Shown here in pieces: positions 1 to 24,935 of a stretch of 64,000 nt of DNA. How positions within the stretch are numbered: the stretch's first letter is position 1; every line of letters starts with the position of its first letter. Position numbers and translations under genes: made by a program. Below the pieces are notes generated by a model. That model saw only the letters and a program-made list of their open reading frames with translations, did not search any database and was not told the DNA's origin. Source of the stretch: Hydrogenophaga sp. BPS33 (GTDB lineage: Bacteria; Pseudomonadota; Gammaproteobacteria; Burkholderiales; Burkholderiaceae_C); assembly GCF_009859475.1 (NCBI RefSeq), contig NZ_CP044549.1, positions 124,001 through 188,000 of the forward strand, read 5' to 3'.

Positions 1-754
1 CCAGCAGGCTGTGCTCCATGCGATGGCGCGGCCCGGCGATGGCAATGGCCAGGGTTTCGCTGTGCACGTTCAGGAACGCCGACACCGCCCACACATCGGC
101 GACGTTCTCGCCCCGGCTCACGAAGTAGCCACGCTTGCGGCTGGCGGCGATGTCGTCGCCCAGGCTCTGCGGGCTGATCAGCGTGGCGCCGGTGATCGCG
201 GGCAGGTGCCGGTGCTCGATCTGTGCGCGCATTTCCGGCTCCTTCAGGCTGCCCAGCAAGGCCTTGCCGATGGCGCTGGAGTGCAGGGGCTTGAACTCGC
301 CCGGCCGCGCGGAGTAGCGGATGGAATGCGTGCTCTCCACCACCTGCAGGTAGATCACCGCATCGCCCTGGCGTTTGCCCAGGATCACCGTTTCGCGCGA
401 GGTGTCGCGCAGGCGTTCGAGCAGCGGCACCACACGCTCCATGAACGGGTCGCTGTCCTGGATCTCGCTGGCGATGTCGAACAGGCGGCGCGTGAGGTAC
501 AGCGAACGCGGGCGGCTCAACGAATAGAGGTAACCGCGCGCCGTGAGCGTGCCCACGATGGCGTGGCAACTGCTTTTGGGAATGCCCGTGGCCTCGGCCA
601 GGTCGGTGAGCGACAACGGTTTTCGCACCTTCTGGAACATCTCGAAGACGTCCAGCACGCGCTCGACGGCGGTCACGGCAACACCTCCGGCCTTCACGGC
701 AGTGGGCGTGGTCTGTTCGGTATCCTGAACGATGGGGTCGAATTCTGGATCCAT
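1..754 (-). CDS. IclR-family transcriptional regulator (3' end beyond window)
   Basis: Reads leftward out of the window; 251 codons are visible, so only the last few residues of a normal 250-270 aa IclR protein are missing. The N-terminus MDPEFDPIVQDTEQTTP is followed by a winged-helix domain (roughly residues 28-90: AVERVLDVFEMFQ, then LTDLAEATGIPKSSCHAIV). The rest is the effector-binding domain, ending near AIAGPRHRMEHSLL, a usual IclR C-terminal stretch. The start is the ATG at 754 with an AGGAG upstream. It diverges from the crotonase/mutase operon with only 72 bp between the starts, so it is probably the local regulator of that operon. The effector is unknown. Confidence 0.88.
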   Translation of the reverse strand, partial: MDPEFDPIVQDTEQTTPTAVKAGGVAVTAVERVLDVFEMFQKVRKPLSLTDLAEATGIPKSSCHAIVGTLTARGYLYSLSRPRSLYLTRRLFDIASEIQDSDPFMERVVPLLERLRDTSRETVILGKRQGDAVIYLQVVESTHSIRYSARPGEFKPLHSSAIGKALLGSLKEPEMRAQIEHRHLPAITGATLISPQSLGDDIAASRKRGYFVSRGENVADVWAVSAFLNVHSETLAIAIAGPRHRMEHSLL

Positions 755-826: not shown

Positions 827-1645
827 ATGAATGCCATGCAGACCACAACACCACCACCTCCTCCCCTTGCCACGAGCGGACCGATCCGCACCGTGGCGCG
901 CGCCTCGGGGGCCGTCTGGCTCACCGTCGACCGCGCCGACAAACACAACGCCCTGGCGCGCCCGGTGCTCGCGGCCCTGGCCGACGCGGTGCGCGAGGCC
1001 GGCGCCCGCGCCGGCACGCGTTACCTCGTCATCAGCGGCGCGGGCGAGAAGTACTTCGCCGCCGGCGGCGACCTGCGCGACCTGGCCGGCGTGCGCGACG
1101 AGACCGCGGTGCAGGCCATGATGGAAGAAGCCGGCGACGCGCTCGACGCCATCCGCCACTGCCCGGTGCCGGTGCTGGCCTACCTCAACGGCGACGCCAT
1201 CGGCGGCGGTGCCGAACTCGCCCTGGCCTGCGACATGCGGCTGCAGGCCGCGCACGCGCGCATCGGCTACATCCAGGCGCGCCTGGCTATCACCTCGGCC
1301 TGGGGCGGCGGGCCCGATCTGTTCCGTCTGCTCGGCCCGGCACGCGCGATGCGCATGATGGCCCGCGCCGAACTGGTGAACGCGCCCACCGCACTGGCCT
1401 GGGGACTGGCCGATGCGGTGATCGCCGATGGCCCGCAAGGCCAGGACATCGCCGACTTCCTCCAACCCCTGGATGCCTGCGCGCCGCAGGTGCTGCGCGG
1501 CATCAAGGCGCAGGCCGTCGCGGCACGCCAAGGGCAGGCCTGGCCCGCGCACCGCCGCGTGGAACAGGACCACCTCGCACGGACCTGGTTGCACGACGAC
1601 CACTGGGCCGCCTCCGACAAATTGCTCAACAAGGCCCGTACATGA
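827..1645 (+). CDS. Crotonase-superfamily protein, possible acyl-malonyl-CoA decarboxylase
   Basis: 272 aa with the enoyl-CoA hydratase/isomerase fold: substrate loop AGGDLRDLAGV (about residue 79) and oxyanion-hole segment NGDAIGGGAELALACD (121-136). The hydratase glutamate in GGGAEL is kept (E130). The second catalytic glutamate, normally in a GQPE motif, is replaced: the segment reads GYIQARLAITSAWGGG, with Q150 at that place. A W-G-G after this segment is also seen in ethylmalonyl-CoA decarboxylase-like crotonases. I chose the ATG at 827 rather than the upstream in-frame TTG at 794, because it gives the usual N-terminal length. The stop overlaps the mutase start (ATGA). By analogy with YgfG in the E. 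coli Sbm operon, decarboxylation of the mutase product is plausible but unproven. Confidence 0.8.
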   Translation: MNAMQTTTPPPPPLATSGPIRTVARASGAVWLTVDRADKHNALARPVLAALADAVREAGARAGTRYLVISGAGEKYFAAGGDLRDLAGVRDETAVQAMMEEAGDALDAIRHCPVPVLAYLNGDAIGGGAELALACDMRLQAAHARIGYIQARLAITSAWGGGPDLFRLLGPARAMRMMARAELVNAPTALAWGLADAVIADGPQGQDIADFLQPLDACAPQVLRGIKAQAVAARQGQAWPAHRRVEQDHLARTWLHDDHWAASDKLLNKART

Positions 1646-3267
1646 ACAGCCGAGACCCCCTTGCATCGGCCTTGCCCGCCGAACCCGAGCTGGGCCCCAT
1701 CAGCCGCACCGGCATACCGGTACCCACCCGGGTCGACGCCTCGGCCGTGAACCCCGAGAACATCGGCCAGCCGGGCGAGTACCCGTTCACGCGCGGCATC
1801 TTCCCCGACGGTTACCAAGGCCGGCTCTGGACCATCCGCCAGTACTCGGGCTTCGGCACCGCCGAGGAAAGCAACGAACGCTACAAGTTCCTGCTGGAAA
1901 AAGGCCAGACGGGTCTGTCGGTCGCGCTGGACCTGCCCACGCAATGCGGCTACGACCCCACGCACCCGATGGCCCGGCCGGAGATCGGCAAGGTCGGCGT
2001 GTCGCTGTCCAACCTGAGCGAAGCGGAAATCCTCTTCAAGGACCTGGACCTGTCGAAGATCTCCACCTCGTTCACCATCAACGGCACCGCCGCGATCATC
2101 TACGCGATGTACCTCGCGGTGGCCGACAAGCAGGGCGTGCCACGCCACAAGCTCACGGGCACGATCCAGAACGACATCCTCAAGGAATACGTGGCGCGCG
2201 GCACCTGGATCTTCCCGGTGCGGCCCTCGATGCGTCTGATCGCCGACTCGATCCTGTACTCGAACGACGTCACGCCGCGCTTCAACCCGATCAGCATCGC
2301 CGGTGCCCATGTGCGCGACGCCGGTGCGACCGCCGCCGAGGAGATGGCCTACACGCTGGCCAACGGCCTGGCCTATGTGGAGGAGCTGCGCCAGCGCGGC
2401 GGCGACGTGGAGAAGTTCGCCAAGCGCCTGTCCTTCTTCTTCTACGTACACATGGATTTCTTCGACGAGATCGCGAAGTTCCGCGCCGGCCGCCGGCTCT
2501 GGGCGCGCTTCATGAAGGAGCGCTACGGCGTGCAGGACCCCAAGGCGCAGCACTTCCGTTTCGGCGTGGTGTGCGGCGGCAGTTCACTGGTCGCGCCGCA
2601 GCCCTACAACAACGCGGTGCGCGTGGCGGTGGAAACCATGGCCGCGGTGTTCGGCGGTGCCCAATCCATCTTCACCTGCGCCTTCGACGAAGCCTTCCAG
2701 ATTCCGACCGAATTCTCGGCCGAGCTGGCGGTGCGCACGCAGCAGATGATCGCCTTCGAGAGCGGCATCGCCCGCACGGTCGATCCGCTCGGTGGCTCCT
2801 ATTTCCTGGAGCAGCACACCGACCGCATGGAAGAGATGATCCTCCAGGTCATGGGCGAGATCGACGCATACGGCGGCGTGGTGCCCGCGATCGAGGACGG
2901 CTGGCTGCAGCTGCGCCTGGCCGAGCGCGGCCTGGAACGCAAGCTCGACACCGACGCCGGCCGCCACGCGGTGGTGGGCCAGAACTACTTCGCCAAGGCC
3001 GACGAAAAGATCGGCGTGGGCGAGGTCTTCAAACTCGATCCCACGATCGCGCAGCGCGCGCTCGACAAGTACCAGCGCGTGAATGACACGCGCAACCAGG
3101 CCGCGGTGGACGCGTCGCTGGCCAAGCTGGCCAGCGCCGCCGCGCAGGACCGCGAAAACGTCATGCCCTGGCTGGTGGAGTGCTGCCACGCCTACGCCAC
3201 CGTCGAAGAGATGGTCGATTGCCTCAAGAAGGAATGGGGCGAATTCAAGGAACCGGTGAACCTATGA
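1642..3267 (+). CDS. B12-dependent acyl-CoA mutase, large (substrate-binding) subunit
   Basis: 541 aa TIM-barrel subunit of the methylmalonyl-CoA mutase family, without the B12 domain, which is the next gene. Landmarks: WTIRQYSGFGTAEESN (63-78), with Y68 at the place of the Propionibacterium MCM Tyr89; TGTIQNDILKE (172-182); PSMR with R198; and the catalytic histidine H223. Ala sits where 2-hydroxyisobutyryl-CoA mutase has Asp117, so the specificity pair is MCM-like. Two usually invariant places differ: the GYH motif reads GAH (A222), and the THSQ motif reads FGVV (307-310). The substrate may therefore not be methylmalonyl/succinyl-CoA. Translationally coupled on both sides by ATGA overlaps. 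Confidence 0.92.
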   Translation: MNSRDPLASALPAEPELGPISRTGIPVPTRVDASAVNPENIGQPGEYPFTRGIFPDGYQGRLWTIRQYSGFGTAEESNERYKFLLEKGQTGLSVALDLPTQCGYDPTHPMARPEIGKVGVSLSNLSEAEILFKDLDLSKISTSFTINGTAAIIYAMYLAVADKQGVPRHKLTGTIQNDILKEYVARGTWIFPVRPSMRLIADSILYSNDVTPRFNPISIAGAHVRDAGATAAEEMAYTLANGLAYVEELRQRGGDVEKFAKRLSFFFYVHMDFFDEIAKFRAGRRLWARFMKERYGVQDPKAQHFRFGVVCGGSSLVAPQPYNNAVRVAVETMAAVFGGAQSIFTCAFDEAFQIPTEFSAELAVRTQQMIAFESGIARTVDPLGGSYFLEQHTDRMEEMILQVMGEIDAYGGVVPAIEDGWLQLRLAERGLERKLDTDAGRHAVVGQNYFAKADEKIGVGEVFKLDPTIAQRALDKYQRVNDTRNQAAVDASLAKLASAAAQDRENVMPWLVECCHAYATVEEMVDCLKKEWGEFKEPVNL

Positions 3268-3683
3268 GCGAAGCAGTCAACACCACACGGCCGCTGGCCG
3301 GCAAACGCATCCTGGTGGGCAAGCCCGGCCTCGATGGACACGACATCGGCGCCAAGATCGTCGCGCTCACCTTGCGCGACGCGGGCGCCGAGGTGATCTA
3401 CACCGGGCTGCGCCGCAGCCCCGGACAGATCGCGCAAGTGGCCGTGGACGAAGGCGTGCACGCTGTGGGCCTGAGCATCCTCTCGGGCAGCCACAAGGAA
3501 CTGGTGGCCGACGTGATCGCCGAGCTGCGCGGGCGCAAGGCCACCGACGTGAAGGTGTTCCTGGGCGGCACCATCCCAGGCGAAGACCACGCGGAACTGC
3601 AGGCGCTGGGCGTGGCCGCGATCTTCACCGCCGACATGCCGCTGGACACCGTGGTGTCGCGCCTGGCGGAGCGGCTCACATGA
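3264..3683 (+). CDS. B12-binding small subunit of acyl-CoA mutase
   Basis: 139 aa, a stand-alone cobalamin-binding Rossmann domain. It carries the DxHxxG motif as GLDGHDIG (D24, H26, G29), where H26 would be the lower axial cobalt ligand. GLSILSGSH (about 72-80) and the glycine loop FLGGTIPG also fit the family. Separate large and small subunits are typical of isobutyryl-CoA, 2-hydroxyisobutyryl-CoA and archaeal-type methylmalonyl-CoA mutases. The start ATG overlaps the large-subunit stop, implying equimolar translation. Confidence 0.92.
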   Translation: MSEAVNTTRPLAGKRILVGKPGLDGHDIGAKIVALTLRDAGAEVIYTGLRRSPGQIAQVAVDEGVHAVGLSILSGSHKELVADVIAELRGRKATDVKVFLGGTIPGEDHAELQALGVAAIFTADMPLDTVVSRLAERLT

Positions 3684-3742
3684 GCGCTGTGCCGGGACGC
3701 CCCAAGCAAGCTCGCACCGCAGGCGAAGCCGAAGGAGAACCC
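3681..3742 (+). repeat. Interspersed intergenic repeat carrying a ribosome-binding site (copy A)
   Basis: Begins at the small-subunit stop (TGAGCGC), runs through CCGGGACGCCCCAAGCAAGC and CGCACCGCAGGC, and ends in an AAGGAG Shine-Dalgarno just before a GTG. Closely similar copies lie at 42073-42137 and, more divergent and on the other strand, at 34963-35026. In all three cases the element begins at a stop codon and ends at the next gene's start. Confidence 0.6.
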
Positions 3743-4885
3743 GTGCGCGCAGGTGCCTCGCGCGGCCCGCTGGCGGGTCTGCGCATCATCGAGGTCGGCC
3801 ACATGCTCGCGGGCCCGTACTGCGGCCTGTTGCTGGCCGACATGGGCGCCGAGGTGATCAAGGTCGAGCCGCCCGAGGGCGACATCGCGCGCCGCGTCAG
3901 CCCGCACTTCATCGGCCCGCACAACGCCTACTTCGCCAGCCTGAACCGCAGCAAGAAAAGCGTGGTGCTCGACCTCGCGAGCGATGCCGGCCGCGATGCG
4001 CTTCACAGCCTCGCGCGCGAATCGCACGCGCTCATCACCAACCTGCGACCCTCGGCGATCCGCAAGCTCGGCCTCACCTACGCCGCGCTCGGCGCGGTCA
4101 ACCCCAAGCTGGTCTGCGTGGCGCTGACCGGCTACGGCCTGGACGGCCCCTACGCCGAGAACCCGGCATACGACTACGTGATCCAGGCCCTCACCGGCGT
4201 GATGGCCCTCACCGGCGACCCGAGTGCACCGCCCACCAAGGCCGGCTACTCCGCGGTCGACAACTCGGCCGGTCTGGTGGCCGCCATGGGCCTGCTGGCC
4301 AAGATCGTCGAAGGGCGGGGCGGACAGGTCGACGTCGCCATGTACGACGTCATGCTCTCGCAGCTCAACTACCTGGCGGGCGCGGCCCTGAACACCGACG
4401 AGACCGTGGAGCGCCTGGCCAATTCCTCGCATCCCTACATGGTGCCGGCGCAGATCTTTCCCACCGCCGACGGCTGGCTCACGCTCTTCATCACGCACGA
4501 CAAGTTCTGGCGCAAGTTCTGCACCGAAGCGGGCCAACCGGGCTGGATCGACGACCCGGTGTTCGCCACCCTGGAAGCGCGTCGCGCCCACCGCGCGCCC
4601 GTGCTCGCAGCCATCGGCACCGTGCTGCAGACGGCCAGTGCCGCCGAGTGGGTGCGCCGCCTCGCGCCGCTGGGCATCGTGGTGTCCGAAGTCGGCACGC
4701 TGGCCGCGGCGCTCGACACCGACCTCACGCGCTCGCGCGGCCTTGTGGTGCCGCTCGGCGACGGCGAGGCGCCGCTGCGCGCCATCGCCAGCCCGTTGCG
4801 CTTCGAGGGCTACGCACCGCGCTACGGCCTGCCGCCGCTGCTCGACCAGCACCACGGGGCCGTGTTCGGAAAGGCCCTGGCGTGA
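3743..4885 (+). CDS. Family III CoA-transferase (CaiB/BaiF type)
   Basis: 380 aa. Starts with LAGLRIIEVGHMLAGPYCGLLLADMGAEVIKVEPPEG-type sequence, the family signature for CoA binding, and carries the catalytic aspartate in the PAYDYVIQALTG segment (D144 from this start). Family III enzymes move CoA between an acyl-CoA and an acid without a ping-pong glutamyl-CoA. I place the start at GTG 3743 behind AAGGAG. The earlier in-frame ATG at 3680 would add 21 residues encoded by an interspersed repeat. In the operon it would load the mutase substrate with CoA or recycle CoA from the product, the role YgfH has in the Sbm operon. Confidence 0.88.
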   Translation: MRAGASRGPLAGLRIIEVGHMLAGPYCGLLLADMGAEVIKVEPPEGDIARRVSPHFIGPHNAYFASLNRSKKSVVLDLASDAGRDALHSLARESHALITNLRPSAIRKLGLTYAALGAVNPKLVCVALTGYGLDGPYAENPAYDYVIQALTGVMALTGDPSAPPTKAGYSAVDNSAGLVAAMGLLAKIVEGRGGQVDVAMYDVMLSQLNYLAGAALNTDETVERLANSSHPYMVPAQIFPTADGWLTLFITHDKFWRKFCTEAGQPGWIDDPVFATLEARRAHRAPVLAAIGTVLQTASAAEWVRRLAPLGIVVSEVGTLAAALDTDLTRSRGLVVPLGDGEAPLRAIASPLRFEGYAPRYGLPPLLDQHHGAVFGKALA

Positions 4886-5808
4886 GCGAACGCGAGGCCC
4901 TGGACCGCTACGCCCTGGGCCGCGCCCTCACCGCGCTGGCCAACGCCAGCGCGCACGACATGCTGGCGCGGGCACCCGACGACGTGCCCGGCGCCGGCGC
5001 GCGCCGCATCGGCCTCACCGGCGCGCCGGGCGCGGGCAAGAGCACGCTCGCGGGCCACCTGGCTCTGCACCGCGCGCGCGGCGGCCACCGCATGGGCGTG
5101 CTCGCGGTCGACCCGAGCAGCCCGAAGTCCGGTGGCGCCATCCTGGGCGACCGCATCCGCATGGACGATCTCGCGGGCAGCCCCGATCTCTACATCCGCT
5201 CCATCGGTTCGCGCTCCACCTCCGACGGCCTGTCGGACAACCTGCCCGAGATGCTCGACCTGATGGACGCGCACGGCTTCGACGAAGTGCTGCTCGAAAC
5301 CGTGGGCGTGGGCCAGGCCGAATACGCCGCACGTGCGCAGGTGGACACACTGCTGCTGGTGCTGCTGCCCGAGAGCGGTGATGTCGTGCAAGCCATGAAG
5401 GCCGGCATCATGGAAATGGCCGACCTCTTCGTGGTCAACAAGTGCGACCTCGCGGGCGCGCAGAAGATGGCCACCGACATCCAGCGCATCGCGGCGGTGT
5501 CGCGGCGCGAGGCGGGCACCTGGCAGCCCCGGGTGCTGCTCGCGTCCAGCAGCAAGCCCGAGACCATCGAGGCCTTGTCGCAGGCCATCGACGCACACCA
5601 GGCCTGGCTGGCCAGCTCGCCACGGCAGGCCCAGCTGCGGCAGGCACGCGCGCGCTACCGCCTGCGCCGAGTGGTCGAGCGCCTCGCCGCGCACGCCATC
5701 GCGGCGCTGCCGGCCCCGGTTTTCGACACCTCGATGCCCCGACAGCTGGCGCATGTGATCGAGGCCCTTCAGCACAGCGCCAGCGACACAACGGAGACCA
5801 CACCATGA
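4882..5808 (+). CDS. MeaB/ArgK-type P-loop GTPase, mutase chaperone
   Basis: 308 aa, starting with a GTG that overlaps the CoA-transferase stop. G-protein motifs are clear: P-loop GAPGAGKST, the VDPSSPKSGGAILGDRIRM segment typical of MeaB, the ETVGVGQAE switch region, and NKCD for guanine specificity. MeaB proteins protect and reload cobalamin mutases by gating adenosylcobalamin transfer. The C-terminal dimerisation arm is present. Its operon position next to both mutase subunits fits that job exactly. Confidence 0.92.
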   Translation: MSEREALDRYALGRALTALANASAHDMLARAPDDVPGAGARRIGLTGAPGAGKSTLAGHLALHRARGGHRMGVLAVDPSSPKSGGAILGDRIRMDDLAGSPDLYIRSIGSRSTSDGLSDNLPEMLDLMDAHGFDEVLLETVGVGQAEYAARAQVDTLLLVLLPESGDVVQAMKAGIMEMADLFVVNKCDLAGAQKMATDIQRIAAVSRREAGTWQPRVLLASSSKPETIEALSQAIDAHQAWLASSPRQAQLRQARARYRLRRVVERLAAHAIAALPAPVFDTSMPRQLAHVIEALQHSASDTTETTP

Positions 5809-6773
5809 AGCCGATCTTGTTGAAACGCGCCGCCACCGCCGTGTTGGGCCTGGGCCTGGCCCTGGCTGCCGCCGCGCAGAGCTTTCCCACCCAGCCCGTG
5901 AAGATCATCGTCCCGCAGACACCCGGCGGCGCCTCGGACACGCTGGCGCGCGTGATCGGGCAGAAGCTGTCCGAGAAGTGGGGCCAGCCGGTGGTGGTGG
6001 AAAACCGCGCGGGCGCGGGTGGCAACATCGGCATGGAAGGCGTGGCGCGTGCCGCGCCCGACGGGACCACGCTGCTGATGAGCTACTCGGGCACGCACGC
6101 CATCAACGGCGCGCTCTACAAGAAGCTGCCCTTCGATCCGGTGAAGGACTTCGAGCCCGTGGCCACGCTGGCGACCCTGCCCTTCGTGATCGTCGCGCGC
6201 GCCGGCGCGAAGCACGCCAGCGTGGCCGATGTGATCGCCTCGGCGCGCAGCGGCGCGCTCACCTACGGTTCGGCGGGCAACGGCTCGGTCAACCACCTGC
6301 TGGGCGTGATGTTCGGCCAGGCGGCGGGCATCCCGCTCACGCACGTGCCTTACCGTGGCGCGGCGCCGGCCATGCAGGACCTGATGGCCGGCCAGATCGA
6401 CCTCGTGTTCACCAGCCTGCCCTCGGTGTCGGGCGCCATCAAGCAGGGCAGCCTGCGGCCGATCGCGCTCACCAGCCGCCAGCGCGCCGCCGCCTTCGGC
6501 AGCATCCCGACCATCGCCGAGGCGGGCTTCAAGGACTTCGATGTGAATCCCTGGTTCGGCCTGTTCGCGCCTGCGGGCACGCCCTCGGCGGTCATCCGCA
6601 AGATCAACGCGGACGTGAACGAGCTGCTGAAGTCACCCGAGGTGGTGGAGAAGTTCACCGGCCAGGGCGCCGTGCCCTTTGCCAGCGACCCGCAGCAGTT
6701 CGATGCACTTCTGCGCGAGGACATCGCCAAGTGGTCTGCGGTGGTGAAGTCTTCGGGGGCGAGTCTGGATTGA
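5805..6773 (+). CDS. Bug/TctC-family periplasmic binding protein
   Basis: 322 aa with a Sec signal peptide (MKPILLKRAATAVLGLGLAL, cleavage likely after AAAAQS). The mature start FPTQPVKIIVPQTPGGASD and the loops VVENRAGAGGNIG and VPYRGAAPA are Bug hallmarks. Bug proteins bind small carboxylates or amides in the periplasm; no TctAB membrane partners are nearby. The ATG overlaps the GTPase stop, so it is expressed with the mutase operon and probably binds the free-acid substrate of that pathway. Confidence 0.92.
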   Translation: MKPILLKRAATAVLGLGLALAAAAQSFPTQPVKIIVPQTPGGASDTLARVIGQKLSEKWGQPVVVENRAGAGGNIGMEGVARAAPDGTTLLMSYSGTHAINGALYKKLPFDPVKDFEPVATLATLPFVIVARAGAKHASVADVIASARSGALTYGSAGNGSVNHLLGVMFGQAAGIPLTHVPYRGAAPAMQDLMAGQIDLVFTSLPSVSGAIKQGSLRPIALTSRQRAAAFGSIPTIAEAGFKDFDVNPWFGLFAPAGTPSAVIRKINADVNELLKSPEVVEKFTGQGAVPFASDPQQFDALLREDIAKWSAVVKSSGASLD

Positions 6774-6800: not shown

Positions 6801-7223
6801 GTGGCCTGGCTCTTCGATGTGAACGACATCTGGGTGCTCCAGTACCACCCGGTGTGGGTGCAAGGCCAGAGCAGCTACGCGCTCTCGCCGGGCTTGCCAT
6901 TGCGCGAGTCCGCCCATGTCGACGGCTCCTCCAACCGCCCGGTGCAGTGGTACTTCGACAACCTGCTGCCCGAAGAGGAGCTGCGCAAGTCATTGGCCAA
7001 AGAGGCCCAACTCGTGCACAAGGACGTCTTCGGCTTGCAGCGCCACTACGGCGCGGAGTCCGCGGGCTCGCTGGTGCTCAGCCCGCTGGGGCAAGGGCCG
7101 GCCCCGGAAGGGGTTCGCGGGCTCACGGTTGAGGCACTGAGCAAGTCATCGTCTGCAAACACCCAGCAGCAACCGCAGCGCGCTCATTTTGATGGGCTCC
7201 TGATTTTCCTTACTTTGAGGTAA
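6801..7223 (+). pseudogene. HipA-like N-terminal fragment
   Basis: The reading frame from GTG 6801 gives 140 aa. Residues 1 to about 115 match the N-terminal subdomain of HipA toxins: WVLQYHPVW, then SPGLPLRES, then the signature WYFDNLLPEEELRKSLA, and FGLQRHYGAESAGSLVLSP. The similarity stops near GLTVEALSKS; the remaining 25 residues look unrelated, and the kinase body is missing. No HipB is visible. I read it as a degraded remnant, possibly left by a deletion or rearrangement, and not a functional toxin. Confidence 0.6.
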
Positions 7224-7243: not shown

Positions 7244-7954
7244 TCACGCCGCGTCGTCGAACGCCGCATCGACCTCCACCACACCCAGCCGCGCATAGGC
7301 CGCAGCGGCCCCGCTCAGGTCCCACACCGTCGCGCCCTGGCGGATCGCTTCGGCGGCCTCGCTTTCCTTGCGCATCTTGGCCTGCGCGGCCGTGACCACG
7401 GCAGCGGCCTCGTCGCGCGGCAGCACCAGCACACCGTCGCCATCGGCCACCACCAGGTCACCGGGGCGCACGGTCACGTCGCCGCAGCTGATCGGCACGT
7501 TCACGCCGCCGCCCTTGCCCTTGTCCGCATGCACCGGCCAGATGTGCGTGGACCACACGGCCATGCCCATGCCGATCACGTTGTCCACATCGCGCACGCA
7601 GCCCTGCACCACCACGCCGGCCAAGCCGACTTCCTTCGCATAGGTGGTGGCCACGTCGCCCCACTGCGCGGCCGAGGTCTCGCCCAGGCAGGTCACCACC
7701 AGCACGTCACCGGGCTGCGCCAGGCGCAGCGCGCGGTGCATCATGAGGTTGTCGCCTGGTTGCGTGAGCGCGGTGATGGCCGGGCCGGCGATGCGCGCAC
7801 CCGGTGTCACGCGCCGCATGCGCGGCGACATGAGTCCGTTGAAGCCCAGGTGAGCGGTGCTTTCGTGGAGGTCGGCCACGGTCACGTCCTGCGCTTGCGC
7901 GCACACGCTGGCGGCCACGCGGTTGACGCGCAGAAAAACGGAAGGTCGGGTCAC
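7244..7954 (-). CDS. RraA-like / 4-carboxy-4-hydroxy-2-oxoadipate aldolase family protein
   Basis: 236 aa, GTG start. Family features: early T-V-A-D-L (DVTVADLHES), the active-site GCVRDVDNVIGM, with the R-D pair that binds pyruvate and metal, and CGDVTVRPGDLVVADGDGVLVLP. LigK/ProA members cleave 4-carboxy-4-hydroxy-2-oxoadipate to pyruvate and oxaloacetate at the end of protocatechuate/gallate 4,5-cleavage; other members are RNase E inhibitors or oxaloacetate decarboxylases. Last gene of a minus-strand group with a TauD-like oxygenase and a Bug receptor, so an aldolase or decarboxylase role in catabolism is more likely than RNase control. Confidence 0.8.
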   Translation of the reverse strand: MTRPSVFLRVNRVAASVCAQAQDVTVADLHESTAHLGFNGLMSPRMRRVTPGARIAGPAITALTQPGDNLMMHRALRLAQPGDVLVVTCLGETSAAQWGDVATTYAKEVGLAGVVVQGCVRDVDNVIGMGMAVWSTHIWPVHADKGKGGGVNVPISCGDVTVRPGDLVVADGDGVLVLPRDEAAAVVTAAQAKMRKESEAAEAIRQGATVWDLSGAAAAYARLGVVEVDAAFDDAA

Positions 7955-7972: not shown

Positions 7973-8851
7973 TCAGGCGTGCGGCACGCAGTACTCGGCT
8001 TCGGAGAGGCGGAAGGTGGTGCGCTTCATCAGGCGCGGCTGGTCGATCTGCATCACGTCGCGGCGGTGCATGGTGCAGCCGTTGTCCCACATCATCATGT
8101 CGCCGTTCTGCACCTTGTGGCGGTACACATGGGCCGGGTCGCCGCCAGCCTCGAACAGCAGCGGCAGCACGCGCGCGTTCTGCTCGTCGCTCAGGCCTTC
8201 GATGGCGATGAGGGTGGTCGGGTCTGCATAGAGCGCCTTGCGACCGGTGCCAGGGTGCGTCAGCACGACCGGGTGTTTCGCATCGGGCAGGTTCAGCAGG
8301 GCGTTGGCCTTGGCCTTGTCCTGCAGCTCCAGCGTGTTGAGCATGGCGTAGCGCTTGGCATAGCGGTAGATACCGGTGCGGCCGTCGATGAGCTGCTGCA
8401 CATCGGCGGGCAGCTGGTCCCAGGCCGCGTACTGGTTGGCCCAGTAGATGTCGCCACCGTCGCGCGGCACTTCGGTGCCGTAGAGGATGGCGCCGGTGGC
8501 CGGGCGCACCTGGAAGGTCTGGTCGGAATGCCAGTCGACGTCCTCGCCGCCCGCGAAGCCGCCCACGAAGCGGCCGTCGGAGTACTTGAGGGTGCTGAAG
8601 TAGATGATCTGCTCGTGGTAAGGCGACTGGATGTCCTTGCGGCCCGAGGTCTCGCAGTGGCCGAAACGCTGGGTGAAGCGCACCAGCTCGGGTTCGTCGA
8701 GCGACTGGCGGCGAAAGATCATCACCGGCGACTGGCGCCAGATGGCCTTGAGTTCGGCGATCGCCGCTTCATCGTCGACGATGTCCATGATGGAGGTGTG
8801 CACCTGCACCGCGAAATCGGAGTGCAGGGAAGAGGTCTGGATCTTGGGCAT
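7973..8851 (-). CDS. TauD/TfdA-family Fe(II)/2-oxoglutarate dioxygenase
   Basis: 292 aa. The metal triad is visible as H108-x-D110 in DWHSDQTF and H262 in CTMHRRD; R277 in LMKRTTF is the likely 2-oxoglutarate carboxylate ligand. Members of this family hydroxylate taurine, 2,4-D, alkyl sulfates or other acids, often releasing a heteroatom group. The start ATG lies 30 bp from the Bug receptor stop and 18 bp separate it from the aldolase-like gene, so the three form one operon. Substrate unknown. Confidence 0.88.
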   Translation of the reverse strand: MPKIQTSSLHSDFAVQVHTSIMDIVDDEAAIAELKAIWRQSPVMIFRRQSLDEPELVRFTQRFGHCETSGRKDIQSPYHEQIIYFSTLKYSDGRFVGGFAGGEDVDWHSDQTFQVRPATGAILYGTEVPRDGGDIYWANQYAAWDQLPADVQQLIDGRTGIYRYAKRYAMLNTLELQDKAKANALLNLPDAKHPVVLTHPGTGRKALYADPTTLIAIEGLSDEQNARVLPLLFEAGGDPAHVYRHKVQNGDMMMWDNGCTMHRRDVMQIDQPRLMKRTTFRLSEAEYCVPHA

Positions 8852-8881: not shown

Positions 8882-9859
8882 TCATTCGGGTTTCATCTGG
8901 GCGGCCTGGATGAGTTGCGCAAAGTTGCGCCGCTCGGCTTGCAGCCAGGTGGCGAGTTCGGCGGTGGTCTTGGGTTGTGCCCGTTCGAAGCCCAGGTCTG
9001 CCAGCGCCTTATGGGTTTCGGGCAGCTCCAGGATCTTTTTCATTTCGGCGCCTAGGCGCGCCTGGATGGGAGCAGGCACGCCCTTGGGCACCATCAGGAC
9101 GTTCCAGGCCGTGAGGGTGAAGTTGGGCAAGCCCTGTTCGCTCACGGTCTTGACGCCGGGCATGGAGGCCAGTGGCGTCAGGGTGGTCACGGCCAGCGGC
9201 TTGATCTTGCCGAGCTGGGTGCGGGTGGCGGCGACGGTGTCGATCAGCACCGGCACGTGCCCGCCGAGCGCGGCGGTCATGGCATCGGCCGAGCCCTTGA
9301 ACTTCACGGGGAACAGCGGCACGTTCTGCTGCTTGAGCATTTCCAGCACCAGCTGGCCGGTGACGCTGGGGATGGCCACGTCCAACTTGTCGGGTTTGCT
9401 GCGCGCCAGCGCGATCAGGTCGGACAGCGAGTTCACCGGCAGGTTGGGCGCGGCGGAGATGGCGAAGGGAATCAGCGCCGTGAGCACGATGGGGTCGAAG
9501 TCCTTCTCGGCGTCGAAGCCGGGGTTCACGAACAAGGCCGGGTTCATGGCGTGGGTGCCGTTGGCGCCCATGACCAGCGTGTAGCCATCGGGCGTGGCCC
9601 GCGCCGCGGCCGCCGTGCCGATGTTGCCGGAGGCACCGGGCCGGTTCTCCACGAACACGTTCTGGCCCAGCGCGTGCGTGAGCTTCTCAGCGAAGTAGCG
9701 GGTGGCGATGTCGGTGCTCTGGCCGGCCGGGTAGGCCACGATGATGCGCACCGGCTTGCTCGGCCACTCGCCTTGCGCGAGTGCGGGCGAGCTCAGCGCG
9801 GCCAGCGCGGCCACGGCGGTGCAGCCTTTGAGCAGGGTGCGGCGCAACAGGGATTGCAT
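8882..9859 (-). CDS. Bug/TctC-family periplasmic binding protein
   Basis: 325 aa with signal peptide (MQSLLRRTLLKGCTAVAALA, cleavage after SPALAQ). Mature start EWPSKPVRIIVAYPAGQSTD and the loop VFVENRPGASGNIG are Bug signatures. I prefer the ATG at 9859 to an upstream TTG at 9910 because it places the signal peptide at the N-terminus. First gene of a short operon with the TauD-like and aldolase-like genes. A copy of the candidate IclR half-site lies about 100 bp upstream (9958-9973). Confidence 0.92.
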   Translation of the reverse strand: MQSLLRRTLLKGCTAVAALAALSSPALAQGEWPSKPVRIIVAYPAGQSTDIATRYFAEKLTHALGQNVFVENRPGASGNIGTAAAARATPDGYTLVMGANGTHAMNPALFVNPGFDAEKDFDPIVLTALIPFAISAAPNLPVNSLSDLIALARSKPDKLDVAIPSVTGQLVLEMLKQQNVPLFPVKFKGSADAMTAALGGHVPVLIDTVAATRTQLGKIKPLAVTTLTPLASMPGVKTVSEQGLPNFTLTAWNVLMVPKGVPAPIQARLGAEMKKILELPETHKALADLGFERAQPKTTAELATWLQAERRNFAQLIQAAQMKPE

Positions 9860-9957
9860 GGTGGGTCTCCGTATCGTGTTGGTGTGTGTGCGGCGTGTCG
9901 CTGGGGTCAAAGGTAGCGCGGGACGCCGTGCTTGCGTGTGCGGTGGTTCTGCAGGGT

Positions 9958-12789: not shown

Positions 12790-13803
12790 TCAACGTCCCC
12801 CTGCCAGGCGCACCTTTTGCAGCGCCTCCTGCGCCGCCGGCCGCTTCTCGCCCCACTCCTTCCAGTAGGGCGTGATGCGGCGCTCGGCTTCGGCAAGATC
12901 GGCCGCGCTGGGCTCGGTGATGACCATGCCACCCTCGGCCAGCTTCCGGGTGATCTCGCCATCCTCGGCGGCCATGGCTGCCGTCATGCGTTTCGTGTGC
13001 TCGTCCACCAGCGCCTGCACCTTGGTGCGTTGGTCGGGTGTGAGCTTGCCCCAGGCGTCCTTGTTCACCAGGATCAGCGAGTCGACGAAGCTCACGTTGA
13101 GGCGGTAGCTGTACTTGAGCAGATCGCGCCACACATGGCCGTAGCCCGAGCTGGCGGTGAGGGCACCGTCGATCACGCCACGGTCGATGCCGGCGGCCAC
13201 CTCGGAGGTGCCTAGCGTGACCGGGATGCCGCCGAGCAGCTTGATGAACTCCGACTGCTCGGGCGAAATCACGCGGATCTTCTGGCCCGCGATGTCGGCC
13301 AGCGAGGTCAGCTTCTTGCGCGACCACATCACGTTCTCGGGGAAGATGTAGCGGCCCAGCACCACCACGTTCTTCTTCGCGTAGTCGGCGCGCAGGTAGG
13401 GCGCGGCGGCGTCCCAGGCCTTCTCGAAATCGGCGCGGCGCGGCAGGAACATCGGCAGGCGCACGATGCCGCCCACCGGCACGCTGCCGATGAAGAAGGC
13501 GTCGTCGCCGAGCTGCACCACGTTGTCGGCCACGGCCTGCGTGATGTTGGTGGCCGCGATCGGCAGCGTGCCGCCCAGGTTCAGGCGCACGCTCAGTTCA
13601 CTCTGCGTTTCTTTCTGGATCGCCTCGAACAGGGCATTGAGGCCCTTGACCGCCGTGACGGTGGCGACCGCGTTGTAGGTGTAGGCGCGCCACTGCGTGG
13701 CGGCCATGGCGGCGCCGCTGGCGCCCAGGCCGGCGATGCCTGCGGCGGCGCCGGCCAGATAACCCACGGCGTCGCGCCGCGTCAAACCATGTGCTGTGTT
13801 CAT
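12790..13803 (-). CDS. dctP: TRAP transporter solute-binding protein (DctP-like)
   Basis: 337 aa. The N-terminus MNTAHGLTRRDAVGYLAGAA has a twin-arginine followed by a hydrophobic stretch, so Tat export is possible. Mature motifs include IRVISPEQSEFIKLLGGIP and GVIDGALTASSGYG, the ligand-contact region of the DctP fold; the conserved arginine in KIRV would bind the ligand carboxylate. First transporter gene after the oxidase, with an ATGA overlap to it. Confidence 0.9.
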   Translation of the reverse strand: MNTAHGLTRRDAVGYLAGAAAGIAGLGASGAAMAATQWRAYTYNAVATVTAVKGLNALFEAIQKETQSELSVRLNLGGTLPIAATNITQAVADNVVQLGDDAFFIGSVPVGGIVRLPMFLPRRADFEKAWDAAAPYLRADYAKKNVVVLGRYIFPENVMWSRKKLTSLADIAGQKIRVISPEQSEFIKLLGGIPVTLGTSEVAAGIDRGVIDGALTASSGYGHVWRDLLKYSYRLNVSFVDSLILVNKDAWGKLTPDQRTKVQALVDEHTKRMTAAMAAEDGEITRKLAEGGMVITEPSAADLAEAERRITPYWKEWGEKRPAAQEALQKVRLAGGR

Positions 13804-15041
13804 GCTGTCTCCTCAGGGGTGGTTGTGGGGATGTCCGGTCGGGCGACCGGCGAGGGGGAAGGGGTGCTGGCGCGTGGCAGCGGTGCGCCCTCGCGCCAGA
13901 GGTAGCTCTCATTCAGGGCTTCGAAGTCGTCGCAGCCGATCTGTGCGAGCACCATGTCGACCTCGGCGCGCACGATGGCCAGCGCGCGCGCCGCGCCAGC
14001 CTGGCCACCAGCGGCCACGCCGAACAGGGAGGGCCGGCCGAAGATCGCCGAGCGTGCGCCCAGGCAACGCGCGATCACCAGATCGGAGCCGCGCCGCACG
14101 CCGCTGTCGAGCATGAGTTCCGCGTGGCGACCCACCGCGTCGCGCACCGCGGGCAGCATGTCCAGCGGGGACGGCGCGGCATCGAGCTGGCGCCCGCCGT
14201 GGTTGGAGACGATCAGGCCCTGCGCGCCCAGCTGCACGGCCTGGCGCGCGTCCTCGGGGTGCAGCAGGCCCTTGATGACCAGCGGGCCGCGCCAGGCCTC
14301 GCGGATCTTGCGAATGTGCTGCCACGACACCATGGGCGCGGGCGTGAGCGTGCCGTACATGTCGGCCACCTGCGCCGCCTGTGCGCCTTCGGGTGCGTAG
14401 GGCAGCCAGTTGCGCATCATGGGAATGCCGCCCGCGCGCAGATAGCGCAACACCCAGCCCGGGTGTCCCATGGCTTCGAGCACGACGCCGGGCGTCATCT
14501 TCAAAGGACGAGAAAACCCGTTGCGCTTGTTGCGCTCGCGGTTGGAATTGACCGGCACGTCCACCGACACCACCAGCACCCGAACCTTGGCCCGGATGGC
14601 GCGCTGCACGAGATCGGCGTTGATCGACTCGTTCGTGGTGCAGTACATCTGGAACCACACGTTGTCGGGGGCGATGGCGCTCGCGTCTTCCAGCGCCGCG
14701 TTGGCCGCGCTGGAGAGCAGGAACGGCACGTTGGCCTCCCGCGCGGCGGCGGCTAGCATCAGATCGGCGTCGGGCCGGAACAGGCCGGCCAGGCCGGTGG
14801 GCGAGATGCCGATCGGGCTCGCATAGCGGTGGCCGAACAGCTCCACCGACTGGTTGCGCCGCGACACGTCGCGCAGGTAGCGCGGCACCAGCGTGTAGCG
14901 CTGGAAGGCCGCGCGGTTGCGTTGCAAGCAGGCTTCGTCATCGGCACCGCCATCGATGAAATCGAAGGCGATGCGCGGCAGTTTGCGGCGGGCCTGCTGT
15001 CGCAGGTCTTCCAGGTTGATGGCGGATGGGATGGAAGGCAT
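13800..15041 (-). CDS. FMN-dependent alpha-hydroxy acid dehydrogenase (LldD/GOX family)
   Basis: 413 aa. Begins with INLEDLRQQARRKLPRIAFDFIDGGADDE, the family N-terminus, and carries the catalytic/FMN segment VSNHGGRQLDAAPSPLDMLP with the proton-abstracting His and substrate-binding Arg, then LMLDSGVRRGSDLV. Oxidises L-2-hydroxyacids such as lactate, glycolate or mandelate to 2-oxoacids. About 30 Pro/Ser/Thr-rich residues are added at the C-terminus. Translationally coupled (ATGA) to the TRAP receptor, indicating that the transporter imports its substrate. A candidate operator and a hairpin lie in the 78 bp upstream. Confidence 0.9.
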   Translation of the reverse strand: MPSIPSAINLEDLRQQARRKLPRIAFDFIDGGADDEACLQRNRAAFQRYTLVPRYLRDVSRRNQSVELFGHRYASPIGISPTGLAGLFRPDADLMLAAAAREANVPFLLSSAANAALEDASAIAPDNVWFQMYCTTNESINADLVQRAIRAKVRVLVVSVDVPVNSNRERNKRNGFSRPLKMTPGVVLEAMGHPGWVLRYLRAGGIPMMRNWLPYAPEGAQAAQVADMYGTLTPAPMVSWQHIRKIREAWRGPLVIKGLLHPEDARQAVQLGAQGLIVSNHGGRQLDAAPSPLDMLPAVRDAVGRHAELMLDSGVRRGSDLVIARCLGARSAIFGRPSLFGVAAGGQAGAARALAIVRAEVDMVLAQIGCDDFEALNESYLWREGAPLPRASTPSPSPVARPDIPTTTPEETA

Positions 15042-22108: not shown

Positions 22109-23419
22109 TCAGTGGGGCCGGCCGGCCGGGGATGCGGCGTTGGCCGCCTTCAAGATGCGGTGTTGCGGCACGAGGCCGCGCCAGTCTTCGCTCTGGCCGA
22201 TCTCGGCCGAGGTGCCCACCACCTGGCTGATGTCGGCGCGCAGCGAAGGCGGCTCCTGTCCGTCGCGCGCAGCCCGGGCGCAGGCCAGCAGCACGCGGTA
22301 GAGGCGGCTGATCGCGATGTCGGCGGTGGACAGCATTTCCTGCGAACGGTCCCGGATGCCACCGCCCGACACGCTGCAGGCGGCGTCCTCCTGCGTGAAG
22401 CTGGCCAGACCGGTGAAGTGGCCCGCGCGCTGCAGCGCACGGTCCTGGTGGTAGCCGTTCTTCCAGCCCATGGCGGTGGGGCCGTCGCAGGTGGCGGCGG
22501 TCATGCCGTGGCGCGTGAGCGTCTCGTCGTCCAGGCCCACGAAAGACAGTTGCTGCGAACGCAGCGGCTCCTGGCCGATCGGCTTCTCGGCGTTCCACCA
22601 CACGTGGAAGAAGTTGCAACGCTCGTCGTTCACGGGCACCACGGCGAACCACAGGTCGCCGTTGGGGTTGGCGACGAAGCAGGGCGCAACGAAGGAGGCC
22701 ACGCGCGCCATGCGCCGGCCCTCGCCCGCGCCGCGCATGGCGACGTAGTGGAAGCCGAAGTCGGTCTCATCGGCCTCGATCTGCGGCGAGGCGTCGAACT
22801 GCATGTGCGTGGTCTTCTTGGCGAAGTCCAGGTCGACGCCTGCGGTCTTGGCCAGCCCAGAGGCGTGCAGCACGGTGAGGTGCGAGGAGTCGACCAGGCC
22901 TTCGACCACCTGCACGAAGTTGCAGTTGACCACCGCGTAGGCGTTGATGCGGTGGTCCTGGTCCACATCCATGAAGGGCAGGTGCGGAAAGTCTGGCGCC
23001 TGGTCGCGCGGACCGAGGTAGGTCCACAGGAAGCCGCCGGCCTCGCGCACCGGGTAAGTGCGGCCCTTGATGCGCTCCTTGAATTTGGGATCGGCCACGT
23101 TGGGCGTTTCCAGCACCTGGCCGTCGACGGCGAACTTCCAGCCGTGGTAGATGCAGCGCAGGCCATCGCCCTCGGCGCGCGCGAGCTGCATGGAGGCGCC
23201 ACGGTGCAGGCAGAACTCGGCGAAGAGACCGGGGCGTCCGTCCTGGTCGCGCCAGACCACGAAGCGCTCGCCCAGCAGCTCGATCGTCTTCGGATCGCCG
23301 CCCGCTTCGGGCACCTCGTTCAATTGCAGGGCTGGCAGCCAGAAGCGGCGCATGGCCTCGCCCTGCGGCGTGCCCGCACCGGTGCGGCACATCAGATCGT
23401 TGTCTTGTTGGCTCAGCAT
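22109..23419 (-). CDS. Rieske non-haem iron oxygenase, phthalate-4,5-dioxygenase-like (oxygenase 2)
   Basis: 436 aa. Rieske motif CLHRG...CIYHGWKF at C70, H72, C89, H92. Iron site VEGLVDSSHLTVLHAS (D177, H180, H185). Shares long stretches with oxygenase 3, for example TPNVADPKFKERI and EPLRSQ, so the two are recent paralogues with presumably different positions of attack or substrates. 38 bp upstream of oxygenase 1 and 31 bp downstream of the shared reductase. No beta subunit is present, as expected for the homomeric phthalate type. Confidence 0.92.
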   Translation of the reverse strand: MLSQQDNDLMCRTGAGTPQGEAMRRFWLPALQLNEVPEAGGDPKTIELLGERFVVWRDQDGRPGLFAEFCLHRGASMQLARAEGDGLRCIYHGWKFAVDGQVLETPNVADPKFKERIKGRTYPVREAGGFLWTYLGPRDQAPDFPHLPFMDVDQDHRINAYAVVNCNFVQVVEGLVDSSHLTVLHASGLAKTAGVDLDFAKKTTHMQFDASPQIEADETDFGFHYVAMRGAGEGRRMARVASFVAPCFVANPNGDLWFAVVPVNDERCNFFHVWWNAEKPIGQEPLRSQQLSFVGLDDETLTRHGMTAATCDGPTAMGWKNGYHQDRALQRAGHFTGLASFTQEDAACSVSGGGIRDRSQEMLSTADIAISRLYRVLLACARAARDGQEPPSLRADISQVVGTSAEIGQSEDWRGLVPQHRILKAANAASPAGRPH

Positions 23420-23450
23420 GGGGTTTCCTTTCGTGGGTCGGGGGTTGTTC

Positions 23451-24425
23451 TCAAAGGTCGAGCACGAGGCGCGGTGTGCAGGAGCGCGAGCAGCAAGGCA
23501 TGAAGAATTCGCGCTTCTCGTCGTCGGTGAGGTAGAGGTCGCGGTGGTCGGGCTCGCCTTCGAGCACGCGCGTCTGGCAGGTGCCGCACACGCCCGCTTC
23601 GCAAGAAAGCGAGAGCGGCACGCCCGCGTCCAGCAGGGCCTGCGCGGCCGACTGGTCGGCCTTCACGGGGATGCAGCGGCCGCTGTGTTTCAGCTCGATC
23701 TCGAACGGGCCATCGGCCGAGTGGTCGATCGGGGCGGCGGCGAAGTACTCGCGGTGCAGTTGGGCCTCGTCCCAGCCGAGTTCGCGCGCGCTGGCGAGCA
23801 CGTGGTCCATGAAGCCGGTGGGGCCGCACACGTACAGGTGGCGGTCGCTCGCGGGCGCACCGATGGCGGCGCGGGCGTCCAACCGCTGCTCGGGCGCGCC
23901 GTCGTCGGCGTGCACCTGCACACGGTCGGCGAACACGGCGCCGCGCAAGCGGTCCAGGAAGGCCATGCGCGCTGGCGTGCGGCCGCAGTAGTGCAACTCG
24001 AACGAGCGGCCTTCGCGCGTCAGCTGCTCGGCCATGCACAGGATGGGCGTGATGCCGATGCCACCCGCGAACAGCACGGCGTGCGCCGGCCCGCTGTGCA
24101 GAGCGAAGTGGTTGCGCGGCCGCGAGACCGACAGCACGTCGCCTTCCTTCACGGTGTCGATCAGCTTCGCCGAGCCCCCGCGCGACTGTGGGTCGCGCAG
24201 CACGCCAATGCGGTAGCGCGGCGCGGCATCGGGCCGTGCGTCGGGCAACTGGAACAAGGAGTATTGGCGCACCGGGCCGCCGGGGACGTGCACGTCGATG
24301 TGCGCGCCCGCTTCGAAGCCCGGCAGCTCCACGCCATCCAGCGGCGCGAATTCGTAGGCAGCGATGTCCTCGGCCACCAGTTGCCGGGCCGCGACACGCA
24401 CCTGCAAGAGCGTTTCCATCAGCAT
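23451..24425 (-). CDS. Phthalate-dioxygenase-reductase-type FMN/2Fe-2S oxidoreductase
   Basis: 324 aa. Order of domains: FMN-binding barrel (RQYSLFQLP), NAD domain (LFAGGIGITPILCMAEQL, YVCGPTGFMD), and a C-terminal plant-type ferredoxin (LSCEAGVCGTCQTRVLEG with the last cysteine in MPCCSR). Passes electrons from NADH to the Rieske oxygenases; one reductase serves three oxygenases here. The start could be ATG 24425 or 24419. A 14-bp palindrome shared with the liv promoter lies 18 bp upstream, so it probably heads its own transcript inside the larger block. Confidence 0.93.
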   Translation of the reverse strand: MLMETLLQVRVAARQLVAEDIAAYEFAPLDGVELPGFEAGAHIDVHVPGGPVRQYSLFQLPDARPDAAPRYRIGVLRDPQSRGGSAKLIDTVKEGDVLSVSRPRNHFALHSGPAHAVLFAGGIGITPILCMAEQLTREGRSFELHYCGRTPARMAFLDRLRGAVFADRVQVHADDGAPEQRLDARAAIGAPASDRHLYVCGPTGFMDHVLASARELGWDEAQLHREYFAAAPIDHSADGPFEIELKHSGRCIPVKADQSAAQALLDAGVPLSLSCEAGVCGTCQTRVLEGEPDHRDLYLTDDEKREFFMPCCSRSCTPRLVLDL

Positions 24426-24442
24426 CTCATCTTCTCTAATCG

Positions 24443-24461
24443 TCTTCCATGGAAGATCATA
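24443..24461 (-). promoter_or_regulatory. MarR operator palindrome with overlapping -10 (reductase promoter)
   Basis: TCTTCCATGGAAGA (24443-24456) is a perfect 14-bp palindrome, identical to 31633-31646. On the minus strand a TATGAT -10-like hexamer (24456-24461) abuts it, so bound repressor would cover the transcription start. Directly upstream of the reductase start at 24425. Confidence 0.65.
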
Positions 24462-24482
24462 GGGTAAAAAAAAGTCCGGCGG

Positions 24483-24935
24483 TCACGCCAGGGCGGACAC
24501 CGCACGCTTGGAAATCGACACCGGCGCACCGCCCAGGCGGCGCTGCTGCAGCCAGCGCGCCAGGCCCAGGTCCATCACCTGGGCGTGCCGGGGAAACCAG
24601 TCGGCCAGGGCGAGCGCGAACGCGCGCACCACGTCGTGGCGTCCCTCGGCCAGCACGGCGCGCACCTCGTCGAGCGACTTGAGCACCGCCGCGTGCTCGT
24701 CGACGTGGCAACCGGCGGAACCGTAGGCGCTCTCGCGCATGGCCTGGTCTTCTTCCTGGAAGTGGCGGCGCGCATGGTCTTCGAAGGCATTCAGCGCCGC
24801 GTGTTGTTGAGCATCGCTGGCGCGCAGCAGCGCGTCCAGGCAATCGACGAATTCGTGGTGTGTGTCGTCCATGCTGGCGTGGTGGACGCTGAAAGCCTCG
24901 TCCCAGGCGAAGCCGTGTGCCAGGCTCGCGTTCAT
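24483..24935 (-). CDS. Bacteriohemerythrin-like O2/iron-binding protein
   Basis: 150 aa four-helix bundle with a hemerythrin ligand set: VHHASMDDTHHEFVDCL (His), EDHARRHFQEEDQAM (His and Glu), CHVDEHAAVL (two His) and RHAQVMDL (His, Asp). Stand-alone hemerythrins bind O2 at a di-iron site and can deliver it to oxygenases. The start overlaps the stop of Rieske oxygenase 3 by 4 bp, so the two are co-translated. C-terminal tail about 25 residues beyond the bundle. Position inside a Rieske operon suggests oxygen supply or sensing for these enzymes (inference). Confidence 0.85.
   Translation of the reverse strand: MNASLAHGFAWDEAFSVHHASMDDTHHEFVDCLDALLRASDAQQHAALNAFEDHARRHFQEEDQAMRESAYGSAGCHVDEHAAVLKSLDEVRAVLAEGRHDVVRAFALALADWFPRHAQVMDLGLARWLQQRRLGGAPVSISKRAVSALA

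Follow-up and report, generated by a model that had tools for sequence, protein, structure and literature searches.

The question raised by the first genes of a 64,000-nucleotide stretch of the Hydrogenophaga sp. BPS33 genome (contig NZ_CP044549.1, positions 124,001 to 188,000; hereafter, the window) is which substrate is processed by an operon encoding a B12-dependent acyl-coenzyme A (CoA) mutase with altered pocket residues, together with a crotonase-fold protein and a CoA-transferase. With somewhat better than even confidence, we interpret this operon as a catabolic module for a 2-substituted succinate, comprising import, CoA transfer, rearrangement to a substituted malonyl-CoA, and decarboxylation. 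We infer all four steps, their direction, and the bulky nature of the substituent (a larger alkyl, gem-dimethyl, or aryl group). A route of import, CoA transfer, rearrangement, and decarboxylation had already been proposed in an earlier sequence-only reading of this DNA and is still the best interpretation, its decarboxylase step being a prediction from residues.

The operon and its conservation

Six plus-strand genes make up the operon. The gene of a crotonase-fold protein, a putative acyl-malonyl-CoA decarboxylase (827..1645; PF00378, 115.8 bits), is followed by those of the large subunit of the B12-dependent acyl-CoA mutase, with its altered pocket (MutL, 1642..3267; PF01642, 611.9 bits), the B12-binding small subunit (MutS, 3264..3683; PF02310, 75.3 bits), a family III CoA-transferase (3680..4885; PF02515, 360.6 bits against a cut-off of 23.3 bits), a MeaB-type GTPase, the mutase chaperone (4882..5808; PF03308, 244.8 bits, and TIGR00750, 242.6 against a cut-off of 240.75), and, in the last place, a Bug/TctC periplasmic receptor (5805..6773; PF03401, 253 bits). 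All five junctions are four-base overlaps (in order, ATGA, ATGA, ATGA, GTGA, and ATGA), and the six genes form one translationally coupled operon. The Pfam matches and the reading of the junctions bear out the genes, coordinates, and ATGA-type coupling reported earlier; the description of the genes as fused into one operon holds for their translational coupling, but there are no fused proteins, and the extent given then (827..5808), although it marks a real operon, omits the Bug gene that the same description names.

The small subunit carries a DxHxxG-type motif, KPGLDGHDIGAK in the window and KPGLDGHD in the eight commonest forms (96 aligned rows), and the PF01642 large subunit and this B12-binding partner belong to the B12-dependent acyl-CoA mutase superfamily. 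In the CoA-transferase, the closest solved structure of which is YfdE (4hl6), PAYDYVIQ is found in the eight commonest forms (64 aligned rows), with retention of the motif Asp, which we take to be the catalytic residue, while MeaB has the P-loop GAPGAGKST. The motifs of these three proteins look intact. No epimerase was found among the operon genes scanned, which we count in favour of the proposed route. The genome of the strain (6.77 Mb, three contigs) contains five PF01642 genes, 62 family III CoA-transferase matches, and seven TctA transporters, so that possible partners for the lone Bug receptor are available.

To trace the distribution of the operon, species genomes were scanned and the best 80 of 158 relatives were kept. 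Among these, 56 (L006–L060 and L079) are at least 70% identical to the window large subunit over the matched part, and Burkholderiales, Rhodobacterales, and marine alphaproteobacteria are among the taxa represented; further loci come from plasmid records of Diaphorobacter, Paraburkholderia, Marinobacter, and Sulfitobacter. Gene order was compared in 63 loci, consisting of the window, the 56 genome-contig loci, five plasmid loci, and a more distant Frankia locus (L061), and was counted only where the flanking sequence was sufficient. The crotonase gene lies upstream of the mutase in 57 of 61 testable loci, the small subunit downstream of the large subunit in 61 of 62, the CoA-transferase downstream in 56 of 61, and MeaB downstream in 57 of 59. 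The crotonase was not found at its position in four loci (L025, L045, L057, and L061), and the CoA-transferase was not at its position in L025, L038, L042, L057, and L061, sitting further downstream in L038. These counts across the 63 loci rule out a chance gene order, and the five-gene core of crotonase, two mutase subunits, CoA-transferase, and MeaB is conserved. The Bug receptor stands outside this core: the uptake receptor included in the module by the earlier reading is present in the window, but is optional, being found at its operon position in 22 of 58 testable loci; in L089 and L092, the operon is followed by genes of TRAP (tripartite ATP-independent periplasmic) transporters. When a DNA pattern of the mutase pocket motif was searched for, matches were obtained in 3 of 399 genomes from the order and in 3 of 60 relatives, both counts including the genome of the strain, while its reversed control gave no match in either set; the module is therefore patchy.

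Divergent from the operon is an IclR-type regulator gene (2..754, minus strand), an open-ended reading frame cut by the left window edge, which is complete in the genome of the strain (L115, 11943–12755). It was assigned to this family by reading and because its counterparts in L086 and L089 are annotated as IclR. An IclR-like regulator is adjacent to the operon in 42 of 56 testable loci.

The mutase large subunit and its pocket

To determine the position of the large subunit among acyl-CoA mutases, two phylogenetic trees were constructed. The first comprised 52 rows chosen from sets of 89 and 30 rows; in one comparison, L003, the other mutase of L086, and L103 were set aside from the 29 rows classed as "others". 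In this tree, 17 proteobacterial rows, including the window, group together at 100/100 and branch with four actinobacterial rows at 100/99, although two of these four represent the same gene. This clade is apart from the rows of methylmalonyl-CoA mutase (MCM), 2-hydroxyisobutyryl-CoA mutase (HCM), IcmF, and ethylmalonyl-CoA mutase (ECM)-like enzymes, and the MCM rows form a separate clade at 100/100. In this phylogeny, a kind of check suggested with the earlier reading, the large subunit lies outside ordinary MCM. In the second tree of 53 rows, five rows of the type of the mutase IaaG of indoleacetate degradation were added. Dropped were 28 named rows, comprising near-duplicates, fragments, the long-branch L086/L124/L125 group, and the rows of IcmF, which was therefore placed only in the first tree. 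In the best tree, the window clade was again apart, including from the IaaG-type rows; forcing the two together costs 14.4 log units, with an approximately unbiased (AU) test p of 0.0325, which is weak. The single mutase L123, a long branch, is joined to the IaaG-type rows. Long branches make the deeper joins of the second tree unsure, and the ECM-like and IaaG-type rows were named from gene surroundings, not from the sequences of assayed enzymes.

Several observations were made on other mutases. In two of the actinobacterial sister loci (L063 and L066), the mutase gene directly follows genes for fumarate reductase/succinate dehydrogenase-like subunits, as judged by reading, and inspection by eye showed neither a small subunit nor a CoA-transferase in the vicinity. 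L123 (G106:C67:900-2468), on a long branch, has an odd pocket of L117, G243, L328, H330, G364, and R366. In the genome of the strain, L003 (C1:399180-400736; wider stretch, L113) is a second unusual mutase with L117, S243, A330, R364, and A366, near which, outside the window, genes for a MeaB-type GTPase, an IclR regulator, thiolase-like proteins, and a Bug receptor were recognised by reading. Two IcmF-type genes of the same genome, C1:1743357-1744910 and C1:1102976-1104529, lie on opposite strands with 414.7 bits each, and may reflect a recent duplication.

Pocket residues were numbered as in the Propionibacterium MCM, fitted to the alignment with 1req. All 20 rows of the window clade keep Y89 and R207, as well as Q197, H244, and E370, and have L117, A243, G328, V330, F364, and C366 (C366 in 19, Ala in one), where MCM, HCM, and IcmF rows have F117, Y243, H328, Q330, H364, and N366; each of the last five residues occurs in none of the 20 clade rows. 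The set H328/Q330/H364/N366 is kept complete in 36 of 36 rows of MCM (8), MCM-like (10), HCM (14), and IcmF (4) enzymes, while the three ECM-like rows (G328, Q330, Q364, and P366) keep only Q330 and the five IaaG-type rows (I328, G/A330, A364, and C366) keep none. Among the named types, Y243 and F117 are lost in the window clade alone. The pattern is nearly invariant across the 56 genome-contig loci: A243, G328, and V330 are each found in 56 of 56, L117, F364, and C366 each in 55 of 56 with one gap, Y89 in 55 of 56 (Ala in the disrupted L057), and R207 in 54 of 56 (one gap, and one Cys in the truncated L059), these exceptions at Y89 and R207 being confined to L057 and L059. The alteration of the catalytic pocket claimed in the sequence-only reading is thus evident in the residue table.

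Tyr89 and Arg207 are common to the window clade and to the MCM, ECM-like, and IaaG-type rows; in HCM and IcmF rows, position 89 is Ile or Phe and position 207 is Gln. In MCM, R207 holds the substrate carboxylate. Across mutase types, R207 with Y89 goes with free-carboxylate substrates and Q207 with others, the specificities being taken in part from PMC8360864, PMC11599936, and PMC10481361. Loss of the H328/Q330/H364/N366 set appears to go with a larger side chain. Taken together, the loss of all four of these residues along with Y243 and F117, with Y89 and R207 kept, points to a dicarboxylyl-CoA with a bulky substituent as the mutase substrate. The pocket of the clade is unlike those of the five known mutase types compared, and the enzyme may act on a compound for which no such degradation is known.

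Among solved structures, HCM (4r3u) matches the large subunit best (496.8 bits); it also has separate subunits, but differs in I89, Q207, retention of H328/Q330/H364/N366, and its separate clade. ECM shares Y89, R207, and G328 with the window clade, but is a single chain (seen for L105), keeps Y243, F117, and Q330, and forms a separate clade; the ECM label was assigned because a gene of the ccr family shares the contig with the mutase in G001 and G002, and the genome in G003. Identity with ordinary MCM is ruled out by the tree and the pocket residues, with HCM or isobutyryl-CoA mutase by the absence of Q207 and I/F89, and with ECM by the tree and by the separate genes of the large subunit and B12 domain.

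The operon has the same functional set as scpA-argK-scpB-scpC (the Sbm operon) of Escherichia coli, where a mutase, a GTPase chaperone, a crotonase-fold protein, and a CoA-transferase are encoded together. This functional set, as well as the retention of Y89, R207, H244, and E370, would fit an ordinary Sbm-type cycle from succinyl-CoA via methylmalonyl-CoA to propionyl-CoA, with harmless drift in the pocket. We consider such a cycle very unlikely, since the pocket changes show invariance and not drift, the tree separates the clade from MCM with full support, and the genome of the strain has another mutase (C1:2953542, L001; 797.7 bits) that groups with MCM in both trees. The identity to the E. 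coli proteins over the aligned parts is 41% for the mutase, 40% for the GTPase, and 23% for the crotonase. As the earlier reading stated, the CoA-transferases are of different families (PF02550/PF13336 in scpC, family III PF02515 in the window) and the mutase is one chain with PF01642 and PF02310 in scpA, but two chains in the window. Moreover, the E. coli mutase pocket is ordinary (YFQRYHHQWHNE versus YLQRAHGVSFCE in the window), and no receptor or IclR gene is annotated in the E. coli stretch shown, while the window has both. Lacking an AcetylCoA_hydro-type CoA-transferase and a one-chain mutase, the operon is like Sbm in outline, but is not a member.

A closer functional parallel is found in the degradation of indoleacetate in Aromatoleum, where, according to PMC8360864, IaaL transfers CoA, IaaGH converts esters of the phenylsuccinyl-CoA and benzylmalonyl-CoA types into one another, and IaaF performs an oxidation and decarboxylation. 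A CoA-transferase, a two-chain B12-dependent mutase acting on a substituted succinyl-CoA, and a subsequent decarboxylation would thus occur in both systems, and the window operon repeats the logic of iaa without being an iaa operon. This precedent bears on the substituted dicarboxylate proposed as the substrate in the sequence-only reading: R207, Y89, and the opened pocket fit such a compound, but the statement that it is not covered by known mutase pathways was overstated, since the phenylsuccinyl-CoA transferase IaaL, with the benzylmalonyl-CoA mutase IaaGH, provides a close functional parallel (PMC8360864).

The parallel would also accommodate a branch of auxin-type degradation that proceeds aerobically and has (aminophenyl)succinate or a close arylsuccinate as its substrate, and the IaaG-type rows, like the window clade, have lost H328, Q330, and H364 and have Cys in place of N366. 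They keep Y243 and F117, unlike the clade, and their pathway decarboxylates by the acyl-CoA dehydrogenase IaaF, where the window operon has a crotonase. The IaaG-type rows are five mutase genes found in the order and assigned to IaaG by their gene neighbourhoods: genes for a molybdenum hydroxylase, both hydantoinase subunits (A and B), and an acyl-CoA dehydrogenase are near in four of the five, and a related CoA-transferase in all five, L149 showing only transferase and mutase genes. Hydantoinase and molybdenum hydroxylase are enzymes of the indoleacetate pathway. In the 63 clade loci, no relatives of hydantoinase A or of either molybdenum-hydroxylase subunit were found, a hydantoinase B relative occurs in one (L045; weak, 26% identity), and IaaF-like acyl-CoA dehydrogenase relatives occur in four (weak, 28–37% identity). 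With these partner genes nearly all missing, the clades kept apart by the tree, albeit weakly, and CoA-transferases that are only 27% identical, an auxin-type pathway is quite unlikely, and IaaG orthology is disfavoured by the same tree and partner genes. L145–L148, and L149 in part, are clusters with iaa-like domain content that turned up in a search of 399 genomes of the order (E of 1e-133 or better), and the mutase motifs RMIA[GA]GGGGG and QTMALC may mark IaaG.

Other mutases resemble that of the window by description only. The hexylmalonyl-CoA/2-pentylsuccinyl-CoA mutases ActD (actinonin) and MatB (matlystatin), for which a rearrangement between bulky malonyl and 2-substituted succinyl esters has been proposed, are biosynthetic, run in the opposite direction, and act with a carboxylase, and ActD is placed in the HCM subclass (PMC5719088). 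The (1-methylalkyl)succinyl-CoA mutases of anaerobic alkane degradation perform the same kind of carbon-skeleton rearrangement, but are anaerobic.

The crotonase and the proposed route

Of the two catalytic glutamates of crotonases (E144 and E164 of the rat enzyme, the sequence of which set the positions), the first is kept in all 59 aligned crotonases, including that of the window, while the second is lost in all 59, being replaced by Gln in 58 and His in one. E. coli ScpB, annotated as methylmalonyl-CoA decarboxylase, has Pro at this position. The loss of the second Glu argues against a plain hydratase, in agreement with the earlier reading, and the protein likely acts as a decarboxylase.

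The same mutase class could also be paired with a crotonase acting as a CoA-ester hydrolase or isomerase, the product not being decarboxylated. The crotonase is closest to hydratase-like sequences and folds, and is not at its position in 4 of 61 loci; however, a malonyl-type product with a free carboxyl group is a natural substrate for decarboxylation, and the second Glu is lost as in ScpB, making this alternative unlikely.

In the favoured route, the acid would enter via the Bug receptor or, in relatives, TRAP systems, and the family III CoA-transferase would load CoA on the carboxyl group next to the substituted carbon. MutL and MutS, with adenosylcobalamin, would then shift the CO-S-CoA group to the neighbouring carbon, yielding a substituted malonyl-CoA, in the same sense as the conversion of succinyl-CoA to methylmalonyl-CoA by MCM, but with a larger side chain; MeaB would load and guard the mutase cofactor. 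Finally, the crotonase would decarboxylate this product to an acyl-CoA for beta-oxidation, which may also donate its CoA to the next acid. Candidate substrates are 2,2-dimethyl-, 2-alkyl-, and 2-aryl-succinates.

Several observations weigh against this interpretation. The closest solved matches and model neighbours of the crotonase are hydratase-like, its model (pLDDT, the predicted local distance difference test score, 85.5) having a crotonase fold that matches many crotonases about equally, and its 23% identity to ScpB extends over 175 residues; the CoA-transferase shares only 27% identity with the IaaL-type one. The argument from pocket size rests on few mutase types, two of them named from gene surroundings only; L117 together with a small residue at position 243 is also seen in L003 and L123, two unnamed single mutases; G328 is common to the clade and ECM, the substituent of which is only methyl; and S334 is not distinctive, as MCM-like rows have Ser or Cys there. 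In addition, the oxygenases beside the operon vary among loci, and all three kinds are absent from 35 of the 63, although 12 of the 35 stretches concerned are shorter than 13 kb.

To our knowledge, few substrates of acyl-CoA mutases are known. We propose tentatively, at somewhat less than even confidence, that the clade is a new specificity class of B12-dependent acyl-CoA mutase with an unusually open pocket, allowing bulky or quaternary 2-substituted succinates to be degraded through a rearrangement followed by non-oxidative decarboxylation, patchily distributed in proteobacteria, with a sister group in Actinomycetota and hosts that include aerobes. If so, 2,2-dimethylsuccinate, for example, might be converted via isopropylmalonyl-CoA to isovaleryl-CoA, which would bring a quaternary carbon into the leucine pathway, and the module might bypass the block that quaternary or substituted carbons impose on beta-oxidation. 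A further clade that has its own invariant pocket and is linked to a transferase and a likely decarboxylase also provides a ready test of pocket residues setting substrate size, and would give a function to genes named only methylmalonyl-CoA mutase or acyl-CoA mutase large subunit family.

Neighbouring genes

Beyond the operon lies a minus-strand set encoding an RraA-like aldolase (7244..7954; PF03737, 144.5 bits), a TauD-type 2-oxoglutarate oxygenase (7973..8851; PF02668, 169.4 bits), a second Bug/TctC receptor (8882..9910; PF03401, 157.8 bits), and a flavin mononucleotide (FMN)-dependent 2-hydroxy-acid dehydrogenase-like protein (13800..15041). With the window counted, these occur in 9, 10, 9, and 7 of the 63 loci, respectively, and are a neighbouring catabolic cluster that recurs beside the operon. 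The dehydrogenase shares a protein cluster (F17) with L012:16365, whose scores against L-lactate dehydrogenase models fall short of the cut-offs. Another recurring set consists of an isopenicillin N synthase (IPNS)-like 2-oxoglutarate oxygenase (13 of 63 loci), an aldehyde dehydrogenase (9 of 63), and a short-chain dehydrogenase/reductase (10 of 63), and another TauD is present beside the operon in 6 of 63. The IPNS-like gene adjoins the operon in two marine alphaproteobacterial loci, with 53–58% identity to the Burkholderiales ones. Such oxygenase/dehydrogenase sets could turn a methyl into a carboxyl group and so make a dicarboxylate, but do not fix the substrate.

A short open reading frame at 6801–7223, between the operon and this cluster, resembles, by reading, the first part of a HipA-type protein and is perhaps a remnant. 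Further along the window, at 22109–26233, two Rieske oxygenase large-subunit-like reading frames with a reductase-like one between them were recognised by reading as further catabolic genes.

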